Below are positions 1 to 40,393 of a DNA stretch of 64,000 nt, piece by piece. Positions within the stretch are counted from its first letter, which is position 1; every line of letters starts with the position of its first letter. The DNA lies in assembly GCF_900108105.1 (NCBI RefSeq), contig NZ_FNUR01000005.1:124001-188000 (forward strand), read 5' to 3'. Below the pieces are notes generated by a model that saw nothing but the letters and a program-made list of their open reading frames with translations, ran no database searches and was not told the origin of the DNA. This DNA comes from Butyrivibrio sp. Su6. GTDB taxonomy: Bacteria; Bacillota; Clostridia; Lachnospirales; Lachnospiraceae. The position numbers and the translations under genes are program-made.

Positions 1-607
1 TATATTCCTTTATTTTAGAAAAAAGTTTATCCTTAATGCCTGACACTTTCATAATATCTTCAATGCAGGCAAAATTCCCATTCTGCTCCCGGTAATCGAC
101 TATCTTACCGGCAACCTTCTCCCCAATTCCAGGAATAGTCTTAAGTTCCTCCTTTGTGGCTTTGTTAATATTTATAAGTCCGTTGCTGCTAAAACTATCA
201 GTGCTGTCAGTATTTTCTGCAACAAGGCCATTTTTAACTTCGTCTTTAGTTGGAATCATGAGTTTGGTGCCATCCTCGACTACGGCAGCAAGATTAACAT
301 AAGTATCATCTGCGCCATCGACGAAACCACCTGCCGCTTTTACTGCATCATCTGCTCTCGAAGCAGGAGGTAATTCATAAACACCAGGACAAACAACTGC
401 ACCACAAACATACACCACAATATTTTCCTGCTCTGTCAGAGCAACTGTAGCGCAATCCCCCGTGCTGCAATTCCCATCAGAAATATCTTCAGACCCCTCA
501 TCATTCATAGTATCACTAAGAACTATATCCGAATCATATCCGGCATTTGTACACCCAGCCAAAATAACAGCCACAGTGCAACAAAGTATAAATATAAACC
601 TACGCAT
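1..607 (-). CDS. comEA: ComEA-like DNA-uptake lipoprotein (3' end cut by window)
   Basis: Likely binds extracellular double-stranded DNA for transformation. The leftward frame opens at ATG 607 behind AGGAGG and has no stop before base 1, giving about 202 residues; only a few are probably missing. The N-terminus is a lipoprotein signal ending LAGC (Cys about 19), so the protein should be lipid-anchored outside the membrane rather than held by an uncleaved helix. An acidic linker follows, then an SLBB-type segment (VYVCGAVVCPGVYEL, about residues 60-75) and C-terminal helix-hairpin-helix repeats (LININKATKEELKTIPGIG). The domain order SLBB then HhH is that of ComEA. It lies downstream of the arginine operon with a 78-base gap and may have its own promoter. 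The family is clear from sequence; a role in competence is inferred. Confidence 0.85.
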   Translation of the reverse strand, partial: MRRFIFILCCTVAVILAGCTNAGYDSDIVLSDTMNDEGSEDISDGNCSTGDCATVALTEQENIVVYVCGAVVCPGVYELPPASRADDAVKAAGGFVDGADDTYVNLAAVVEDGTKLMIPTKDEVKNGLVAENTDSTDSFSSNGLININKATKEELKTIPGIGEKVAGKIVDYREQNGNFACIEDIMKVSGIKDKLFSKIKEY

Positions 608-24090: not shown

Positions 24091-26010
24091 TCATTCTCCT
24101 TTCATGCTTGGCTCAAAAAGCCCTTTTTGTGTGTTCAAAAACTCTATGTATTCTTTTTCCGGAATAGGTCTTGAATAATAAAATCCCTGTAAATACTCGA
24201 CTCCGTTATCTATAAGGATTTTTGCCTGTTCCATTGTCTCAACACCTTCCGCCAGAATATGAAGTCCGTATTCCTTCAGGAAATTTATGGTATACTGAAG
24301 CATTTTCAGGTTTTCCGGCCTGTCCTTATCAAGACAGTTCCATATGAATTCCTTATCCATTTTGACCAGGATATAATCCATCTTGAGTATTTCAAGGAGA
24401 TTAGAGTACCCCGATCCAAAATCATCCATTGAGAAGGTGCTTCCCATTTCCTTGAGCCTTCTGACATTTTCTCTGAAAGCCTCATCGTTATTTATGTAGG
24501 CCGTCTCTGTTATCTCAAAATTGATAAACTTAGGTGGGATATGGTACTTTTCCATTTTCCGGCTAAGTCTTTCAAACGCCTGATGATCAACAACTTCATT
24601 GCCTGAAAGGTTGACCTCGATAGTCTTTACTCCAAAGCTTGAAATATTTTCTTTTGCGATGAAAGAGCACACTTTTTCAAACACCAGATCATCAATCTGC
24701 TGGATAAGGCCACATTTCTCAGCTATCGGAATGAAATCTTCAGGAGAAATATAATTCGCCGAATCAGGTCTTTTAAGTCTTACCAGCGCTTCTGCTGATG
24801 AAAAAGCTCCGTCTTTAACCGAAAGGATTGGCTGGTAATAAACTTCAAAAGCTTTATTCCTCACTGACTCTCTTACCACATCCTCGATAGTGTTTCTGTA
24901 CCTCATCTTGTCGATGACACTCTCATCAATTACCAAATTCGGCGCTGACTGTTTGTAAATATATTCACCGGACACATATGTCAGGATCTGAAGAGCCTCA
25001 TTGGCGTCTTTTGCACACTTAAGAGCATCTATTACAGCAAAGGTAAGTTTATAATTACCACCATCCACTTTGTAATTGTTTATGATGTTCATAAACTCTT
25101 CTATCTTTTCAGGAGAAGCAACCACAAAGCTCAATGTGTTCCAGTTTGAAAGATAACTGTCTATATCAAGCTTATCCTGAACAAGCTCAGCCACATTGGC
25201 CTGAAGTTTATAGAGCTCATCTCTGTTGGCTGCAGTCTGAACACTTGTCTTTCCGGTAAAAATGACAGAGACAATGAAAAACGGCTTCCCGAGTCCATAC
25301 TTCTCCAAAAGATACAGTGTAAAGGCATCCTTATTTTTCACATTAGGAAGTGCCCTCTCAAACAGTTCCTTAGGATTCTCAATGACTAAAAATACCACAA
25401 GAGCCATGACCATCATGGCTATGGAAGACACCTGAATTCCCTTTGTATAATACTGGTATGCCGCAAGGAAAAGCCATGCTAATGCTCCTGAAAAAAGAGC
25501 TATAAACTCTTCTCGCCTAAGACGTTTTCTATGAACCACAAGACCTAGCACCATGGCAAGTAGGTAAAAGAAGCCTATGAAATAACAAACTATTATCATA
25601 GTTCCATAGTTGTAATAAAAGCCTGTCTGAGTTCTTCCATACCTTGCTTTTCCGGTAAGTATCGAAATCAATCCGACCACAAGCGGGATAGAAGGTATTG
25701 CGCTCATCCTTGCAGATAAGCCTCTTCTGATAGTTACTTTCGAACAGACGTATAATGTCATCACATATGTACATATCAAAAGTGATCCTATATAAAAATT
25801 CTGAACACCGCGTCTTAAGACATTATAAGATCCTCCGAGATACACAAATACATAGCATTCTGTTATCTCAGAGAGAATATTTATAAAAGCCATCATGAGG
25901 AAGACCAAAAAAACACGCGATGAACTAAGCTGCGGTTTTGTCTTGCGCAGGTATATGATGATTAATATAGAAAGTACTATAATTGCAACAATAGGGGTAC
26001 GTATTTCCAT
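24091..26010 (-). CDS. Membrane EAL-domain c-di-GMP phosphodiesterase
   Basis: 639 residues. The first ~220 hold seven to eight membrane helices with a histidine-kinase-like 7TM sensor look. A middle region (about 225-365) lacks the GGDEF motif and may be a decayed or divergent cyclase domain. The C-terminal EAL domain (about 375-630) keeps the expected residues: AEALVRL, FEITETAYIN, DDFGSGYSN, KMDKEF, AEGVET and QGFYYSRP. It should therefore cleave c-di-GMP to pGpG at the membrane. The ATG at 26010 has no ribosome site; a sigma-A promoter ends seven bases before it, implying a leaderless message. Confidence 0.88.
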   Translation of the reverse strand: MEIRTPIVAIIVLSILIIIYLRKTKPQLSSSRVFLVFLMMAFINILSEITECYVFVYLGGSYNVLRRGVQNFYIGSLLICTYVMTLYVCSKVTIRRGLSARMSAIPSIPLVVGLISILTGKARYGRTQTGFYYNYGTMIIVCYFIGFFYLLAMVLGLVVHRKRLRREEFIALFSGALAWLFLAAYQYYTKGIQVSSIAMMVMALVVFLVIENPKELFERALPNVKNKDAFTLYLLEKYGLGKPFFIVSVIFTGKTSVQTAANRDELYKLQANVAELVQDKLDIDSYLSNWNTLSFVVASPEKIEEFMNIINNYKVDGGNYKLTFAVIDALKCAKDANEALQILTYVSGEYIYKQSAPNLVIDESVIDKMRYRNTIEDVVRESVRNKAFEVYYQPILSVKDGAFSSAEALVRLKRPDSANYISPEDFIPIAEKCGLIQQIDDLVFEKVCSFIAKENISSFGVKTIEVNLSGNEVVDHQAFERLSRKMEKYHIPPKFINFEITETAYINNDEAFRENVRRLKEMGSTFSMDDFGSGYSNLLEILKMDYILVKMDKEFIWNCLDKDRPENLKMLQYTINFLKEYGLHILAEGVETMEQAKILIDNGVEYLQGFYYSRPIPEKEYIEFLNTQKGLFEPSMKGE

Positions 26011-31237: not shown

Positions 31238-31540
31238 ATGGTTGTATTAGAAAAATATACAGTTGATGATATCAAAGAGCTAGTCAAACCTCTCCTTAAA
31301 AAGTATTCAGCCAAAGGAGCTATCCTATTTGGTTCTTATGCCAGAGGAGAAGCTACTGAAGAATCTGATATCGATATTGTGGTATTGGGAGGCAAAGACT
31401 TTGACCCTACGGATGTTTTTTGCATAGCTGATGAGCTATATGACTTGTCTGGTAAGGATGTGGATGTCTATGAAGAACGAGAAATTGATAAATCTTCTGA
31501 GTTTTATAAAAACATATTGAAGGATGGTATCAGAATTTGA
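31238..31540 (+). CDS. MNT-type minimal nucleotidyltransferase
   Basis: A 100-residue stand-alone nucleotidyltransferase of the pol-beta superfamily. The catalytic GS-X10-D-X-D motif is complete: Gly32-Ser33 and Asp44-Ile45-Asp46, after a hydrophobic strand GAILF. Such proteins are usually the antitoxin of MNT-HEPN pairs, where they adenylylate the HEPN ribonuclease. No HEPN gene is present; the next gene is a RelA/SpoT-domain protein read through a four-base TTGA overlap. The family is sure; an antitoxin role is inference. Confidence 0.88.
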   Translation: MVVLEKYTVDDIKELVKPLLKKYSAKGAILFGSYARGEATEESDIDIVVLGGKDFDPTDVFCIADELYDLSGKDVDVYEEREIDKSSEFYKNILKDGIRI

Positions 31541-32151
31541 ATCTGCTCGAAAAAGATGGTCTCTCAACTGAGATACTTAGCATACTTTCATATAAATCAG
31601 AGCTAGATATAAGCTTAAAAAAGAATCTGCATCACTTTGATAAATCATCACTGCTCAAGGATGTAGATAATGCCATAAGCTTTTATGACACTCAGGGAGA
31701 AATCCTTGATAGCATAGCTGTAGACTACAGGATAAAGTCAGAACAATCTGCTCATCACAAATATGAAAGATACTATCCAGATACTCTTGCAGAAAAGGTA
31801 TTCAATGATTTGCTGGGTTTTAGGTCTCTATGTGATTCATACTCAGATATATTGGCATTAAGTAACGAAAAGAACTTCCGAGTTGCAGATATGTCTATGG
31901 GTAAATCAAATGATGACGGATACAGAGGAGTTCACGTATACTTTCAGATAGACCACTACCATTATCCTATTGAAATTCAGTACAACACATATTATGATAG
32001 ACAATTAAATAACTGGTTACATTCATTCCTGTATAAGAAGGGATATGATAATTCAGTCGGTAAGATAATGCGAAAAGAGTATGAACTTGGAAATATAAAA
32101 TCCGATATAGATTTTGAGGAGGTGTTAAAAGATGTGCTATCTCGTAGCTAA
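31537..32151 (+). CDS. RelA/SpoT-domain nucleotidyltransferase (small alarmone synthetase-like)
   Basis: 204 residues containing only a synthetase domain, without HD hydrolase, TGS or ACT domains. Expected motifs: RIKSEQSAHHKYER (from Arg65), NDLLGFR with metal-binding Asp91, DDGYRGVH (GYR 128-130, His133), and PIEIQYNT with Glu146. It may transfer pyrophosphate to GTP/GDP, ATP or, as in toxic members, to the CCA end of tRNA. The frame has no early ATG; a TTG at 31537 overlapping the MNT stop is the best start, with AAGGA 12 bases upstream, so expression likely depends on coupling. Close linkage to an MNT gene and a tRNA suggests a toxin role, not housekeeping alarmone synthesis. Confidence 0.82.
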   Translation: MNLLEKDGLSTEILSILSYKSELDISLKKNLHHFDKSSLLKDVDNAISFYDTQGEILDSIAVDYRIKSEQSAHHKYERYYPDTLAEKVFNDLLGFRSLCDSYSDILALSNEKNFRVADMSMGKSNDDGYRGVHVYFQIDHYHYPIEIQYNTYYDRQLNNWLHSFLYKKGYDNSVGKIMRKEYELGNIKSDIDFEEVLKDVLSRS

Positions 32152-32555: not shown

Positions 32556-33944
32556 TCACATTGCAAAGGCAACTGTTCCTAAGAATTCTGTACTTACCTG
32601 AACTTTGCCGTTTGTTACTACTGCATCATAGGAATGAACCTCACCTGTGACAGTTCTAACATATACTGTTACAGTCTTTCCTTCATAAGATTTATCGAGA
32701 GTAAATGTGTATTTTGCAGGTGTTTCAAGTTTAGTAAGGCTTACTCCTGCTGCATATGCTCTGATAAAGAGAGCTCCTTCAATTGGAGTCTTTCCGGACT
32801 CTGTTATTACTGTATTAAGAGCCTGTGCGTTTTTATCAAGTCCGTTGCTTTCATTTCCGTTTCTATCAAGAGCAGGAACTATTGTTGCTGTTATCTTTGA
32901 TGAATTGCCCGCAGAAGCACTTGCAGAACTAAGGTCAACAACAACGTTCACTGACTTTCCATTTGAATCTTTTACTGCTACAGTAGCCGCACCTGAACCA
33001 TTTGATACAGCTGCAAAATAACCATTTGATATATCAGATGTGTATACATTAGCGTAGTCTGACGTGGTTGTTATATTTGATCTTGATGAATTATTGTCAT
33101 CTGAAGATGCACTGCTTCCACTATCTGTACTAGAAGCGCCTGAATCTGATGAAGACTCTGATGAAGGCTTTGTACCGGCTGTAATAGTGACGTTTCCTTT
33201 GTATGCATAGTCTTCAGATGAAGTTATGATTCTTCCGATTTCGCCTGCATGAATATCCGTTCCATAATAACCTTGATTAAGAATTGACCCATCAGAAGGA
33301 GAAGATATATAGCTATCATTAAGAGTAATCGTGCCACCTACTGCAGCAATAGGAAACCGTCCAGAATTTTCAGCAGAAACATTTGAATTGTTGATAACAA
33401 CATTATGGTTTCCGTATTCGCCCTGCGCATGAGAAGACATCTGGTCTTGTCTTCCAGCTTCGATGCTGCCTGTACTTGTTACATTTGAATCAGTGATAAT
33501 AACATCTCCATCTGTTCCTTTACCGTCTTTACCACCATTTATGCCATCAGCAGATACAGTTGATTCTGTTATCCTCAAATCTCCATCAGCAGAAATAGAA
33601 CCGTCTGAAGTAATGTTCGCATTATTTATTGTCAGATCGGCATTAGTTGACGAATCAGATGTACTTACCTCAATATTTCCTGAAACTGTAACAGGGTCAT
33701 TATTTGTTGTAATAGTAATATCATTATCAGCCACGACATCACCATCAACATCGTCTGTCAAAGTAAGTATGCTATCGCCAGAATTCCAGGTAAACCCTTC
33801 GCCGCTTTCAGTCTCATCATTAAATGCATTGGATTCTTCACCAACATATCCTGATGTTCCAGCATAAGCAATTATCGGAGAACCGATGAGACTTGCTGCA
33901 ACAAGCCCACTCAAAATTTTGGCAGCTACTAAATGTCCTTTCAT
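32556..33944 (-). CDS. Secreted beta-helix-like surface protein under c-di-GMP control
   Basis: 462 residues from ATG 33944 (GGAGGTGG ribosome site). A signal peptide (about 1-28, ending AYA) is followed by short repeating Asn/Asp/Thr-rich strands (about 45-255: SNVTSTGSIEA, SNVSAENSG and alike) typical of a right-handed beta helix or polymorphic carbohydrate-binding surface repeat. A Ser/Asp-rich linker (about 260-290) joins a C-terminal domain (about 310-462). There is no LPXTG anchor. Its long leader holds a c-di-GMP-I riboswitch and a terminator, so it is likely an adhesin or matrix protein switched between motile and sessile states. The function is inferred. Confidence 0.75.
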   Translation of the reverse strand: MKGHLVAAKILSGLVAASLIGSPIIAYAGTSGYVGEESNAFNDETESGEGFTWNSGDSILTLTDDVDGDVVADNDITITTNNDPVTVSGNIEVSTSDSSTNADLTINNANITSDGSISADGDLRITESTVSADGINGGKDGKGTDGDVIITDSNVTSTGSIEAGRQDQMSSHAQGEYGNHNVVINNSNVSAENSGRFPIAAVGGTITLNDSYISSPSDGSILNQGYYGTDIHAGEIGRIITSSEDYAYKGNVTITAGTKPSSESSSDSGASSTDSGSSASSDDNNSSRSNITTTSDYANVYTSDISNGYFAAVSNGSGAATVAVKDSNGKSVNVVVDLSSASASAGNSSKITATIVPALDRNGNESNGLDKNAQALNTVITESGKTPIEGALFIRAYAAGVSLTKLETPAKYTFTLDKSYEGKTVTVYVRTVTGEVHSYDAVVTNGKVQVSTEFLGTVAFAM

Positions 33945-33980
33945 TAAAATCCACCTCCATGAAATAAAAATGAATATAAA

Positions 33981-34009
33981 AAACTGCTTACCATAAAGAC
34001 AAGCAGTTT
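33981..34009 (-). terminator. Terminator in the riboswitch expression platform
   Basis: AAACTGCTT (33981-33989) and AAGCAGTTT (34001-34009) form a 9-bp stem; in the leftward transcript six T follow at once. It lies between the riboswitch aptamer and the ribosome site of the secreted-protein gene. Confidence 0.85.
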
Positions 34010-34022
34010 CCCGACTAAAAAA

Positions 34023-34092
34023 ATGCAACTGGCTGTCTCATAAAGACCCTATAGCTTTGCGTCACCGGATTGCTCCGGCTTTGCTGATATAT
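34023..34092 (-). ncRNA. c-di-GMP-I (GEMM-I) riboswitch aptamer
   Basis: Read leftward it carries the class I hallmarks: AGCAAAG, then a GNRA-capped helix CCGGA-GCAA-TCCGG (34078-34065), the conserved TGACGCAAAGCTA, the AGGG receptor segment, and CAGCCAGTTGC closing the third helix. This matches the GEMM-I consensus from memory. Together with the terminator it would control transcription of the secreted protein according to c-di-GMP level. Whether ligand turns the gene on or off needs a fold or a reporter. Confidence 0.92.
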
Positions 34093-34208
34093 AAACTTCA
34101 TAACGTAAAAAGATATCTATATAACTGATACTCATTAATAACAGATTATTTCCCTGTTGTAAAGAAATTATATATAAAAAATGAATAAAACAACTTTCGA
34201 TTTTTGGT

Positions 34209-34856: not shown

Positions 34857-36935
34857 CTAGTGATTCCGTAAACTTTTTAGTTCAAAACCAAGCATTGTAA
34901 TATCATCAAATTGTTCGGCTTTTCCTCTAAAGTTTGCAATATCCTGGGAAATTGCAGGCAAAACTTCTGTAAACGGTTTGTCTTTTACAGAATTGATAGT
35001 AGTAAGAAGTCTGTCAGTGCCATACTGGACAATATTTTCATTGATTGCCTCCGGAATACCATCTGTATAAACAAATATTTTATCCCCAGGCACCAGTGTT
35101 ATCTCATATTCCCTTGCCTGCAGGTTCTCCATTGCTGCAAGAGCCAGGCTGTGTTTATCCTTAAACAGCTCATAATCACCGCCGACATGTTTGATAAGAG
35201 GGTACTCATGGCCGGCGTTAGCACACTTCATAACGCCTGTTGCCACATCCAGGATTCCGATCCACACAGTTACGAACATCTCTGCATCATTTCCATCGCA
35301 AAGAGTATTGTTGGTCTTGAAGATTATCTCTGCAGGACTTTTTCCAAGCTCCGCAAAGCTTCTGATAGCAGTCTTACTTCTCATCATGAACAAAGCTGCT
35401 GGAATTCCTTTTCCCGAAACATCAGCAATTACAAAAGCAAGTTTCCCGGGGCCGGCAAAAAAGAAATCATAGAAGTCTCCGCCGACCTCTTTTGCCGCCT
35501 TCATAGAAGCAAATATCTCGATATTATCCTTCAAAGTAGCAAACTGGAAGTTCCTTGGCAAAGACGATTCCTGTATCGTCCTTGCAAAGATAAGCTCCTG
35601 TTCTATCCTCTTTTCCGCAGCAGCTATGTATCCTTTTAGTGTCTCAACTGTCTGATTTATATCATCTGAAAGTGAAGCAAACTCTGATGAGTTTCTTACC
35701 CGAACAACTTCATCAAGATCGCCATTTGTTATCTTATCAAGTGAAGCATTGATAAGATCAATATTACTGATAACGATCTGCTTTACCAAAAATGCAATGA
35801 GCACGTAGATAACAGTAAATAAAAGGATATCTGCCAGCGCTGATTCGTATGCCTGGGCATTTCTATACCAATAAAGCTCACTGTAAGGTATATATGTCAA
35901 AAGAATCATATCAACGCCAATACCATCGACTTTATTAAGTGACACCTCTTCAAAGAACTGTCCCTCAAAGAGTTCCGCATCCTTTTTTTCCAAAAGTGCA
36001 TTAAGAGTGCTTTCACTAAGCTTATCTTCTTTGTGCCTTCCGGCAATGATATCTCCGTCGGAATCTATGATCTCAAAGAATTCATTTCCTTCTGCGGTAA
36101 GTCTTTTTGACACTTCAAAATAGCGGTTCTTTACGCTCTGAGAAGTCTCTATTATGCTGTTTCTGCCATTTTGAGAGGCAGACTGAGTCTGGATAATGTA
36201 AGAAAAGGCAAAATTGCCGGCAATAACAATTGTGGTTATCAAAAAGAGCCAGCGCTGAAATCTCTGGGAAACAGATACTTTCTCTCCCGTCATATCCTTT
36301 AAAGGATTCTTCCATTCGCCGGATAGAATCTGAAGAATAATAGACATAAAAGAAAGGGCTATTCCTGAAAATACAATCATAGGAACAGAGCAGATGCTTA
36401 CTACATGGAAAGCCATTCGCATATCATCTCTGTGGGTTATGAAAACCACGTACATATGGAAAACTTCCATAACAGCGCCCATGAACAGAGCATATACAGG
36501 AGAAGGCTTTTTTCCTTCAAATACTTTTGAATGCATAAGCCAGGCAACAAAACCGGCAAGACAGGTAGATACGCTACAAGCAATTCGCGTATATGACCCT
36601 ACACCAAAATATGTTCCCGCAATATATCTTTCTATTCCGCCGATAAGACCTGCAATGATACCTGAAGCAGGATTAAAAAAAAGTCCCGCCGCAAGTGGAG
36701 CGACATCTCTGAGGTTAAGAAGCATGTCTCCATAATCCACCGCACAATGGGTAGATAACACAGAACACATACCATAGATAAGTCCAAGAGACAGCTTTAT
36801 GACAAAAGTCTGCCTCCTGTCCTTTAGAAGTTTCCACAGGAACACCGTCAACACTATATAAAGTGCTGATATCCCTGACATTTTCATCAACATAAGAATC
36901 ATATAAGCAAATCCCCTCATAGATAATACATACAT
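34857..36935 (-). CDS. Membrane sensor with SpoIIE-type PP2C phosphatase domain
   Basis: About 692 residues. The N-terminal six-helix part (about 1-205) looks like the 5TM-5TMR LytS-type sensor (NLRDVAPLAAGLFFNPASGIIAGLIGGIERY). A further helix pair brackets an extracellular sensor (about 230-370), then a HAMP-like segment (about 385-435), a coiled coil and a SpoIIE phosphatase (about 460-690) with metal aspartates in GGDFYD, DVSGKG, YTDG and DDITM. It likely dephosphorylates an anti-anti-sigma or similar protein. No target pair is adjacent. The start is uncertain: ATG 36935, TTG 36944 or ATG 36920, none with a good ribosome site. It follows degV by seven bases or more, probably in one unit. 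Confidence 0.85.
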   Translation of the reverse strand: MYVLSMRGFAYMILMLMKMSGISALYIVLTVFLWKLLKDRRQTFVIKLSLGLIYGMCSVLSTHCAVDYGDMLLNLRDVAPLAAGLFFNPASGIIAGLIGGIERYIAGTYFGVGSYTRIACSVSTCLAGFVAWLMHSKVFEGKKPSPVYALFMGAVMEVFHMYVVFITHRDDMRMAFHVVSICSVPMIVFSGIALSFMSIILQILSGEWKNPLKDMTGEKVSVSQRFQRWLFLITTIVIAGNFAFSYIIQTQSASQNGRNSIIETSQSVKNRYFEVSKRLTAEGNEFFEIIDSDGDIIAGRHKEDKLSESTLNALLEKKDAELFEGQFFEEVSLNKVDGIGVDMILLTYIPYSELYWYRNAQAYESALADILLFTVIYVLIAFLVKQIVISNIDLINASLDKITNGDLDEVVRVRNSSEFASLSDDINQTVETLKGYIAAAEKRIEQELIFARTIQESSLPRNFQFATLKDNIEIFASMKAAKEVGGDFYDFFFAGPGKLAFVIADVSGKGIPAALFMMRSKTAIRSFAELGKSPAEIIFKTNNTLCDGNDAEMFVTVWIGILDVATGVMKCANAGHEYPLIKHVGGDYELFKDKHSLALAAMENLQAREYEITLVPGDKIFVYTDGIPEAINENIVQYGTDRLLTTINSVKDKPFTEVLPAISQDIANFRGKAEQFDDITMLGFELKSLRNH

Positions 36936-36951
36936 GATCAACAAGGATTAT

Positions 36952-37894: not shown

Positions 37895-40393
37895 CTATTT
37901 CTTTACCTCAAAAGAAATAGCATCATTGGGATCAAGGGGCTTACTGAAATAATACCCTTGTATAGTATCAGCTCCATACTTGCGAAGCTTCTCATACTGC
38001 CACTCATACTCCACTCCCTCTATAGTTATAGTCTTGCCCATATCGTGAACAAGCTTTATAACATCCTCAATAAAGCTATCCTTGCCATCAATCAAATAAG
38101 CGTCTACCAATGATTTATCAAGCTTTATGTCATCTACAGGGACATAGATAAGATAAGCAAGTGATGAATAGCCGGTTCCGAAATCATCGAGAAGAGTTTT
38201 AATTCCTAATCTCTTCAGACCTTCGAACAGGTCGTCAGTCTGTATTGAGTTTTCCAAAAGAAGGCTCTCGGTAATCTCAATTTGAAGGTACTTTGGATCT
38301 ATATCATAGATATCCAAAAGCTCTTTTAAGAAAGAAACATATCCAACATCATGTATCTGCTTACTCGAGAAGTTGATTGATATAGGATATAGTTTTCTCC
38401 CCTGTGCCATCCATTCAGACAACTGTTTAACAACCATTAACGTCACATGTCTGCCAAGTCTCGTGATCCACCCGCTCTTTTCGACAACAGGGATAAAAAG
38501 ATTTGGTTCATAGGAGCCATCTTTCATTCTGATGAGCGCTTCAAATCCCACAAGTTCCCTTGTATCAGCCGAAACCTTTGGCTGATATTTCATATAAAAG
38601 CCGTCTTTTTCAAAGGCTTTTATAAACTGCGTCTTTATCTTCTCCTCGTTATTTACCTTATCTTTCATCACGTCGGCATAGACAAATATCATGCCTCTTC
38701 CGCGTTCTTTTGCTTCATACATTGCAATCTCAGCATTTATAATATGCTGCTCGGGATATGAAAGGCCATCCGAATTGGAAATACCCATGCTGGCAGAAAG
38801 AGCAATATTTATCCCGTTTGAGGTAAAAGACTGTGAAAAGAGCTTTTTCAGATCACATATCTTCTTAGAATTCTCATCAAGCCTTTCTGAAGGACAATAG
38901 ATCAAAAATTCATCACCGCCATACCTTCCCAGAGTCATTCCGTTGGAGTGACAAAAACTCTGCAGATGATCAGCTATAGTTTTAAGAATTTTGTCTCCTG
39001 CTTCATGTCCATAGTTTTCATTAACATCTTTAAAGCCATCTATATCAAGCATTATTATCGAATAGACCTGATTCATTGTCACATTGTCATTGAGGTACTC
39101 AACCATAGCTCGCCTGTTAAATACATCAAGGAAATCGTCGTGCCTAGCCTGATATTGCAATTTGTAATGAGAATTTTCTATTTCCTCTTTTGAATCTCTA
39201 AGCGCCTCATTTACTTTTTTCTCATTTTTAAGAGCCGCATACATTGCAGCAATAAATAGTACCATTGATGAGATCATCAGCAATGCTACCGGAAGTATTT
39301 CACTATAGTTATCAAAAAAAGTCGTAGGTCTGTCTATATATATAGTGTCTTTTGGCAGATTATCTATATGGATTCCATACTCCATAACAAGAGGATAATT
39401 GTATTCAGTCCTGCTTGGAGTATCCAGGATCAAACTATACTCCGAAATCTCTACATCATCATTCAAAACATCGCACATTATCTGCGCAGCATTTTTTGTC
39501 TGAACCCTAAAATCCATAAAGGTTCCACCCAAAACTCCCGCATCTCTGCCTCCGGAATAATTTCTGAATATAGGAACAGTCACATTGTTGACAACAGTTC
39601 TTGTTCTGTTGAGCATAGAATAATTGTTTCCGTACTTGTCATTATAACAAGTCATATAAAACAATATTGAGTTTTTAGGCAGATTCTGGAGACTTCGTAT
39701 GAGCTCCTCCTGGGAAAGGGTGGAACTGTCTATATCTATAAATGTATAATCAGGATACTTTTCAGCTAATGAATAAAATATATTCATATCTGCTATTCCC
39801 GCTGCAGATTCATCATGAAGAGCGACGAGATTTTTTCTGTCAGGCAGGCTTTCCATTGCAGTTTCCATAGTTTCCTGCAAATAGTCTTTTTCATAAAATC
39901 CAGCTGCCATAGGATTGCGGCTTGCCTCCTCGGCAAACTGCAGATCATTTATTCCATAAAACACCAGAGGCAGTCCGTTAAAGAGTTCCGTTTGATACTT
40001 CAGTGCAAACTTAAGGGCATCATCATCACCTAAAAGAACACCCTCATATGTTTTATCTCTGAGGAACCTATCCTTGAAGTAATCATGAAAAGTCTCAATA
40101 TCTTGCACGGTACCAAATTTCTTTGTATTCATATAAACCGTGTCAAATTCTATTCCATTGGGATATAATCCCTCTTTAAGGCCTATTTCCTGATCTGCAA
40201 ATGTAAAATACGTAGGTTCGTAAGAACTAAGAACTAACACCTTATGCTTTACTTCTGAAGGAATCTGCGGCATACGCCTGAATGCTTTTTGCTGCATATG
40301 TTGTCCGAGCATGCCAAAAGCTGCAATAAGGCAAACCACTCCCATTGCAGCTAATATATACCTTAAATAAAAAAGATAGTTCTTTCTCTTCAT
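37895..40393 (-). CDS. GGDEF-EAL protein with extracellular binding-protein-like sensor
   Basis: 832 residues. One helix (about 9-29), an extracellular domain (about 45-355) resembling ABC-type substrate-binding sensors (VLVLSSYEPTYFTFADQEIGLKEGL), a second helix (about 366-387), then GGDEF (about 415-570, intact GRYGGDEF) and EAL (about 585-830: FEALIRM, EITESLLLEN, DDFGTGYSS, KLDKSLV, EGVE, QGYYFSKP). Both catalytic sites look usable, so it could make and degrade c-di-GMP depending on the sensed ligand. A candidate promoter (TTCAAT-17-TATAAT) lies upstream. It is the second c-di-GMP enzyme near the riboswitch. Confidence 0.9.
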   Translation of the reverse strand: MKRKNYLFYLRYILAAMGVVCLIAAFGMLGQHMQQKAFRRMPQIPSEVKHKVLVLSSYEPTYFTFADQEIGLKEGLYPNGIEFDTVYMNTKKFGTVQDIETFHDYFKDRFLRDKTYEGVLLGDDDALKFALKYQTELFNGLPLVFYGINDLQFAEEASRNPMAAGFYEKDYLQETMETAMESLPDRKNLVALHDESAAGIADMNIFYSLAEKYPDYTFIDIDSSTLSQEELIRSLQNLPKNSILFYMTCYNDKYGNNYSMLNRTRTVVNNVTVPIFRNYSGGRDAGVLGGTFMDFRVQTKNAAQIMCDVLNDDVEISEYSLILDTPSRTEYNYPLVMEYGIHIDNLPKDTIYIDRPTTFFDNYSEILPVALLMISSMVLFIAAMYAALKNEKKVNEALRDSKEEIENSHYKLQYQARHDDFLDVFNRRAMVEYLNDNVTMNQVYSIIMLDIDGFKDVNENYGHEAGDKILKTIADHLQSFCHSNGMTLGRYGGDEFLIYCPSERLDENSKKICDLKKLFSQSFTSNGINIALSASMGISNSDGLSYPEQHIINAEIAMYEAKERGRGMIFVYADVMKDKVNNEEKIKTQFIKAFEKDGFYMKYQPKVSADTRELVGFEALIRMKDGSYEPNLFIPVVEKSGWITRLGRHVTLMVVKQLSEWMAQGRKLYPISINFSSKQIHDVGYVSFLKELLDIYDIDPKYLQIEITESLLLENSIQTDDLFEGLKRLGIKTLLDDFGTGYSSLAYLIYVPVDDIKLDKSLVDAYLIDGKDSFIEDVIKLVHDMGKTITIEGVEYEWQYEKLRKYGADTIQGYYFSKPLDPNDAISFEVKK

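Follow-up and report, generated by a model that had tools for sequence, protein, structure and literature searches.

Does a secreted protein of Butyrivibrio answer to the second messenger c-di-GMP and, if so, is its production started or stopped when the messenger accumulates? Members of this genus are common plant-fibre degraders of the rumen, and our literature search for c-di-GMP riboswitches in Butyrivibrio found no paper. The question is raised by a leader within the window, i.e. the whole 64-kb stretch of DNA analysed here, for which a sequence-only reading had proposed a class I c-di-GMP (GEMM-I) riboswitch with a transcription terminator ahead of a gene for a secreted beta-helix protein. 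Here, we find that the class, the terminator platform and the nature of the product all stand, and that the architecture of the leader points to an OFF switch.

Architecture of the leader

The Rfam covariance model RF01051, named as the check in the sequence-only reading, matches the leader over its full length (model 1-87) with 53.0 bits (E 1.6e-7 in the window), well over the gathering score of 35, and the only other RNA family matched in the 64-kb window is tRNA. Alignment and sequence agree on the features of the class, namely a GNRA-capped helix, the GACGCAAAGC junction and a CAGCC...GC 3' strand. The GNRA (GCAA) loop on a CCGGA/TCCGG helix and the two motifs TGACGCAAAGCTA and CAGCCAGTTGC, on which the first proposal had been built, are present as described, and we can place them on the minus strand, which had been left unspecified. 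In the covariance-model alignment the ligand-selecting position (G20 of Vc2) is a G, where the cGAMP variant carries an A.

Table 1. Features of the leader, the gene and the encoded protein (window positions unless given as residues).
Feature	Position	Strand	Basis or remark
Candidate promoter	34135..34163	-	TTTACA 34163-34158, 17-nt spacer, TATTAA 34140-34135; sequence reading
c-di-GMP-I (GEMM-I) aptamer	34021..34095	-	Rfam RF01051, 53 bits, cut-off 35
Antiterminator 5' strand GAGACAGCCAGUU, in aptamer 3' half	34027..34039	-	Predicted; pairs with 34008-33996 at 12/13 positions; prefix folds
Switching strand AACUGCUUGUCUU (5' arm of the terminator or 3' strand of the antiterminator)	33996..34008	-	Predicted from folds
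Intrinsic terminator hairpin and T tail	33978..34012	-	Terminator scan, arm complementarity, leader fold
Ribosome-binding site GGAGGTGG	33951..33958	-	Sequence reading; kept in orthologues
Gene, secreted 462-aa protein	32556..33944	-	ATG at 33944, end at 32556
Signal peptide	residues 1-28		One hydrophobic N-terminal stretch ending A-Y-A
Beta-helix domain	residues ~31-215		Predicted model
Ser/Asp-rich linker	residues ~263-305
C-terminal beta-rich domain	residues ~306-462

The candidate promoter was not among the listed results of a consensus promoter scanner; the stretch is conserved in the orthologous leader L011 (local score 61-62, where shuffles reach at most 34-40). A TTG start at 34028, which would lengthen the reading frame, was rejected since it lies inside the riboswitch, whereas the ATG at 33944 has a ribosome site.

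A 9-bp terminator stem followed by a T run had also been claimed, and indeed the arms AAACTGCTT and AAGCAGTTT are 9 nt long, 100% complementary and 11 nt apart. The terminator scan extends the hairpin to a 15-pair stem with T tail (shuffles give 0.3), and the order of terminator, ribosome site and ATG is as proposed. The terminator starts about 12 nt past the last base of the aptamer core and has no base in common with it. Being entirely downstream of the aptamer, it can form at the same time, and in the leader's fold of minimum energy the aptamer helices and the terminator stand side by side (z -2.9), so that ligand binding should leave the terminator undisturbed.

A second pairing is predicted to compete with both elements. 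The strand AACUGCUUGUCUU, which comprises the terminator 5' arm and the first bases of its loop, can pair with GAGACAGCCAGUU at 12 of 13 positions, with a single C-C mismatch. In prefix folds, whose energies omit ligand and tertiary contacts, this antiterminator is preferred over the aptamer alone at 103 nt (-24.8 versus -20.3 kcal/mol, a gap of 4.5) and at 107 nt (-26.5 versus -20.3 kcal/mol, a gap of 6.2), while upon completion of the hairpin by its 3' arm the combination of terminator and aptamer is preferred over the antiterminator (-32.5 versus -26.5 kcal/mol, a gap of 6). Both pairings are kept in all four intact leaders, those of the window and of three orthologues, which are few and not independent. 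In L010, a double change turns an A-U pair of the terminator into G-C and leaves a G-U in the antiterminator that can still pair; there, the prefix fold of lowest energy does not coincide exactly with that of the antiterminator.

The statistical support for the antiterminator is modest. Local ungapped complementarity scores 23, where shuffles average 15-16, and in each leader 1-4% of the shuffles score as high. A duplex-energy test of the whole aptamer against the downstream RNA was not significant (33-83% of dinucleotide shuffles as low), because the GC-rich aptamer strands pair widely. For most other Butyrivibrio switches the local complementarity test likewise failed to reach significance, and we therefore make no claim of a genus-wide antiterminator; for the window leader, we infer one.

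Direction of control

How would these elements act together? Transcription would start a few tens of bases 5' of the aptamer. When c-di-GMP is low, the terminator 5' arm would capture the 3' half of the aptamer, the terminator would come too late to form and the gene would be transcribed. At high c-di-GMP, the ligand would keep the aptamer closed and leave the terminator 5' arm free for its own 3' arm, such that transcription would end ahead of the ribosome site. The protein would be made in the low-c-di-GMP state, and its production would halt as c-di-GMP rises.

The class of the aptamer does not by itself give the direction. Of the seven class I loci of C. difficile that have a responding gene, six are lowered by c-di-GMP (PMC6200980), yet Bc2 of B. 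thuringiensis is a class I ON switch before an adhesin (PMC4933901), so that direction cannot be transferred by class alone and has to be argued platform by platform. The platform with a measured OFF response is Cd1 of C. difficile, with a terminator T+H and an antiterminator T+A+H (PMC9262584). Its hallmarks are found in the window leader: a terminator compatible with the aptamer, and a predicted antiterminator built from the 3' strand of the aptamer and the 5' arm of the terminator. On this architecture, we consider it likely that the window element is a class I c-di-GMP riboswitch acting as a transcriptional OFF switch. The direction is a well-supported reading of the predicted pairings rather than a demonstration, and the switch would very probably stop production of the secreted beta-helix protein at high c-di-GMP.

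The main competitor is an ON switch, in which the bound ligand would block the terminator and switch on the gene, in the manner of Bc2 and its collagen adhesin. Such a control of a surface adhesin has a precedent in Bc2 itself (PMC4933901), and a surface-binding protein would suit the sessile state at high c-di-GMP. However, a bound aptamer is no competitor of a terminator that lies beyond its core and shares no base with it, and in the ON switch pilM a strand of the aptamer belongs to the terminator (PMC9262584); we regard an ON switch as unlikely here.

The secreted protein and its orthologues

What is it that the switch would control? The claims of a signal peptide and of a missing wall anchor both hold: the N-terminal hydrophobic stretch ending A-Y-A is followed by no later membrane stretch, and a search of the 462-aa protein for the LPxTG-type anchor of a sortase-anchored adhesin found none. 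The description as Asn/Thr-rich fits roughly, Ser, Gly and Asp being high as well (Ser 13.7, Gly 12.4, Thr 11.2, Asp 10.3 and Asn 9.4% in residues 30-262). That the product is a secreted beta-helix protein is supported by the predicted model. AlphaFold2, run with the seven orthologues, predicts, with high confidence, a parallel beta-helix over residues 31-140, and the best solved match of the N-terminal domain is Cthe_2159 of Clostridium thermocellum (4phb, Z 12.7, 162 residues, rmsd 3.4; a second match to Cthe_2159, again for the domain alone, has Z 12.5 over 161 residues). Next come 4kh3, a structure of a self-associating protein (Z 10.5), and, at Z 7-8, polysaccharide lyases and tailspikes; for the full-length model Foldseek listed matches at E above 0.001 only.

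The likeness to Cthe_2159, a member of PF14262, is one of fold in the model and not of sequence. The PF14262 profile matched none of the seven orthologues, whether the domain was searched at E up to 10 or the whole protein at E up to 1. A genuine PF14262 protein is encoded elsewhere in the genome, whose PF14262 matches do not include the window gene, and a profile comparison between the two proteins was weak. In short, the parallel beta-helix is there, and the sequence does not place the protein in the family. Searches of the protein in Pfam and NCBIfam found no domain, and a sequence search of the PDB found nothing meaningful. A likeness of the C-terminal part to ZU5/UPA and GAIN (Z ~6-7.6) was set aside, since that part of the model is of low to middling confidence; the region from about residue 394 is 28-40% identical to other small secreted Butyrivibrio proteins. 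The Cthe_2159 family binds cellulose and polygalacturonic acid (PMC6712302). With slightly less than even confidence, we suggest from the fold that the protein may work like a secreted polysaccharide-binding beta-helix, directed at a plant or microbial polysaccharide.

Whole-protein orthologues are found in seven genomes, all Butyrivibrio and including that of the window, and the orthologue of strain AE2015, to which the genome is close, is 96% identical. In four of the seven (window, L009, L010, L012) the switch is complete and lies equally far from the gene. L014 has a relic before an intact orthologue (L014:4913-4987, 32.5 bits, below the cut-off of 35). Its capped helix, GACGCAAAGC and 3' strand all carry changes and no terminator is present, the aptamer running directly into the ribosome site; since L014 is a metagenome assembly, as are L011 and L012, this relic rests on one assembly. 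In the leaders of L011 and L013 no aptamer was detected. L011 keeps the promoter region of the window (L011:4930-5000, local score 62, against at most 34 in shuffles); the ribosome site comes immediately after it, with neither riboswitch nor terminator in between, which means that the switch was lost at least once while the gene was kept.

Could the window leader itself be decayed, or terminate constitutively without a response, as some C. difficile class I copies seem to do? The clear relic in L014 and the C. difficile class I switches that drive no detectable gene (PMC6200980) show that such leaders occur, but the window aptamer is on a par in score with the genome's other copies (48-67 bits), all of its conserved blocks are present, and terminator and antiterminator are retained in four genomes, which makes this highly unlikely.

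The gene is scattered on the ArgS tree, where at least five gains or losses are needed. The window, L009, L011 and L014 share a neighbourhood of argS, a MATE transporter, a tRNA and an amylase, so that, most probably, this locus once had the switch, which was later lost or decayed. Directly after argS we also observed Clostridiales-1 RNA, in two tandem copies in L014 (1675-2016) and one in L011 (2294-2461). In L010 and L012 the gene lies elsewhere, and the homology with the window spans from the aptamer (34092) to the gene end, which argues that switch and gene stayed together as a unit. The last ~450 bp of the gene are 99-100% identical DNA between L012 and L014, against 79-87% for the rest, which points to a recent exchange between species by recombination or gene conversion.

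We give an even chance to a scenario in which c-di-GMP ancestrally shut off the secreted beta-helix protein and the switch was then dismantled in several Butyrivibrio lineages, making the protein constitutive, with one clean removal that kept the promoter (L011) and one decayed aptamer that has no terminator (L014). If true, these genomes would form a natural series for asking why cells drop second-messenger control of one surface protein and keep their other c-di-GMP switches, for which the orthologues without a switch are ready-made comparisons.

c-di-GMP switches in the genome and in other bacteria

The genome has five c-di-GMP-I aptamers including the window copy. The strongest (67.5 bits; L006:1297-7977) lies before a coiled-coil protein, a signal peptidase and a 1712-aa SpaA/LPETG surface protein, in a cluster that adjoins a flagellar hook-type gene. 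The others precede a VanW-domain protein, a Cache-type chemoreceptor (L007:1813-3749) and a secreted nuclease with an Ada-type metal site. At the chemoreceptor, the aptamer strand AAAAUGUC is complementary to GACAUUUU of the terminator. ON types may occur among the switches other than that of the window, for which the automatic terminator scan reached back no more than 12 nt from the end of the aptamer. A search of the genome for c-di-GMP-II aptamers gave no match, with the control unmatched as well. At least one c-di-GMP-I aptamer is found in 64 of 79 genomes of the genus. The five switches, all before secreted, surface or chemotaxis genes, make up a small and testable c-di-GMP regulon. Beyond the sequence-only reading, the analysis has thus added the probable OFF direction, the predicted antiterminator, four other switches, the orthologues and the series of switch losses.

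The genome also has 43 GGDEF and 20 EAL matches. That the aptamer senses another cyclic dinucleotide (3'3'-cGAMP, GEMM-Ib variant) instead of c-di-GMP is most improbable: cGAMP riboswitches are close variants that were initially annotated as c-di-GMP type (PMC9262584), but the window aptamer has the G of the c-di-GMP type at the selectivity position, in a genome rich in GGDEF and EAL domains. Within the window, an EAL protein (24091-26010) and a GGDEF-EAL protein (37895-40393) flank the gene, each within 9 kb. Also nearby are a 5TMR-HAMP-SpoIIE phosphatase (34857-36944) and, at 31238-32151, a small nucleotidyltransferase-fold protein followed, with an overlap of a few bases, by a weakly RelA/SpoT-like protein.

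Are such switches known elsewhere? Class I OFF switches before surface proteins are already known from C. difficile. Cdi-1-2, upstream of CD630_27970, is a class I switch that lowers a putative calcium-binding adhesin as c-di-GMP rises (PMC6200980); its likeness to the window locus is one of switch and gene type, and the C. difficile gene spans ~6 kb. In its predicted mechanics, the window leader resembles Cd1 (Cdi-1-3, the OFF switch of C. difficile flgB), which has the same aptamer class, a terminator 3' of the aptamer and an antiterminator made of the same two strands (PMC9262584). Unlike the window switch, Cd1 controls flagella, and its stretch from aptamer to switching strand is longer (binding-capable from 87 to 147 nt, against ~25-30 nt in the window). 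With Bc2 of B. thuringiensis cap, the window shares a class I aptamer and a terminator before a surface-protein gene, whereas Bc2 is an ON switch and its product is a cell-wall-anchored, collagen-binding adhesin (PMC4933901).
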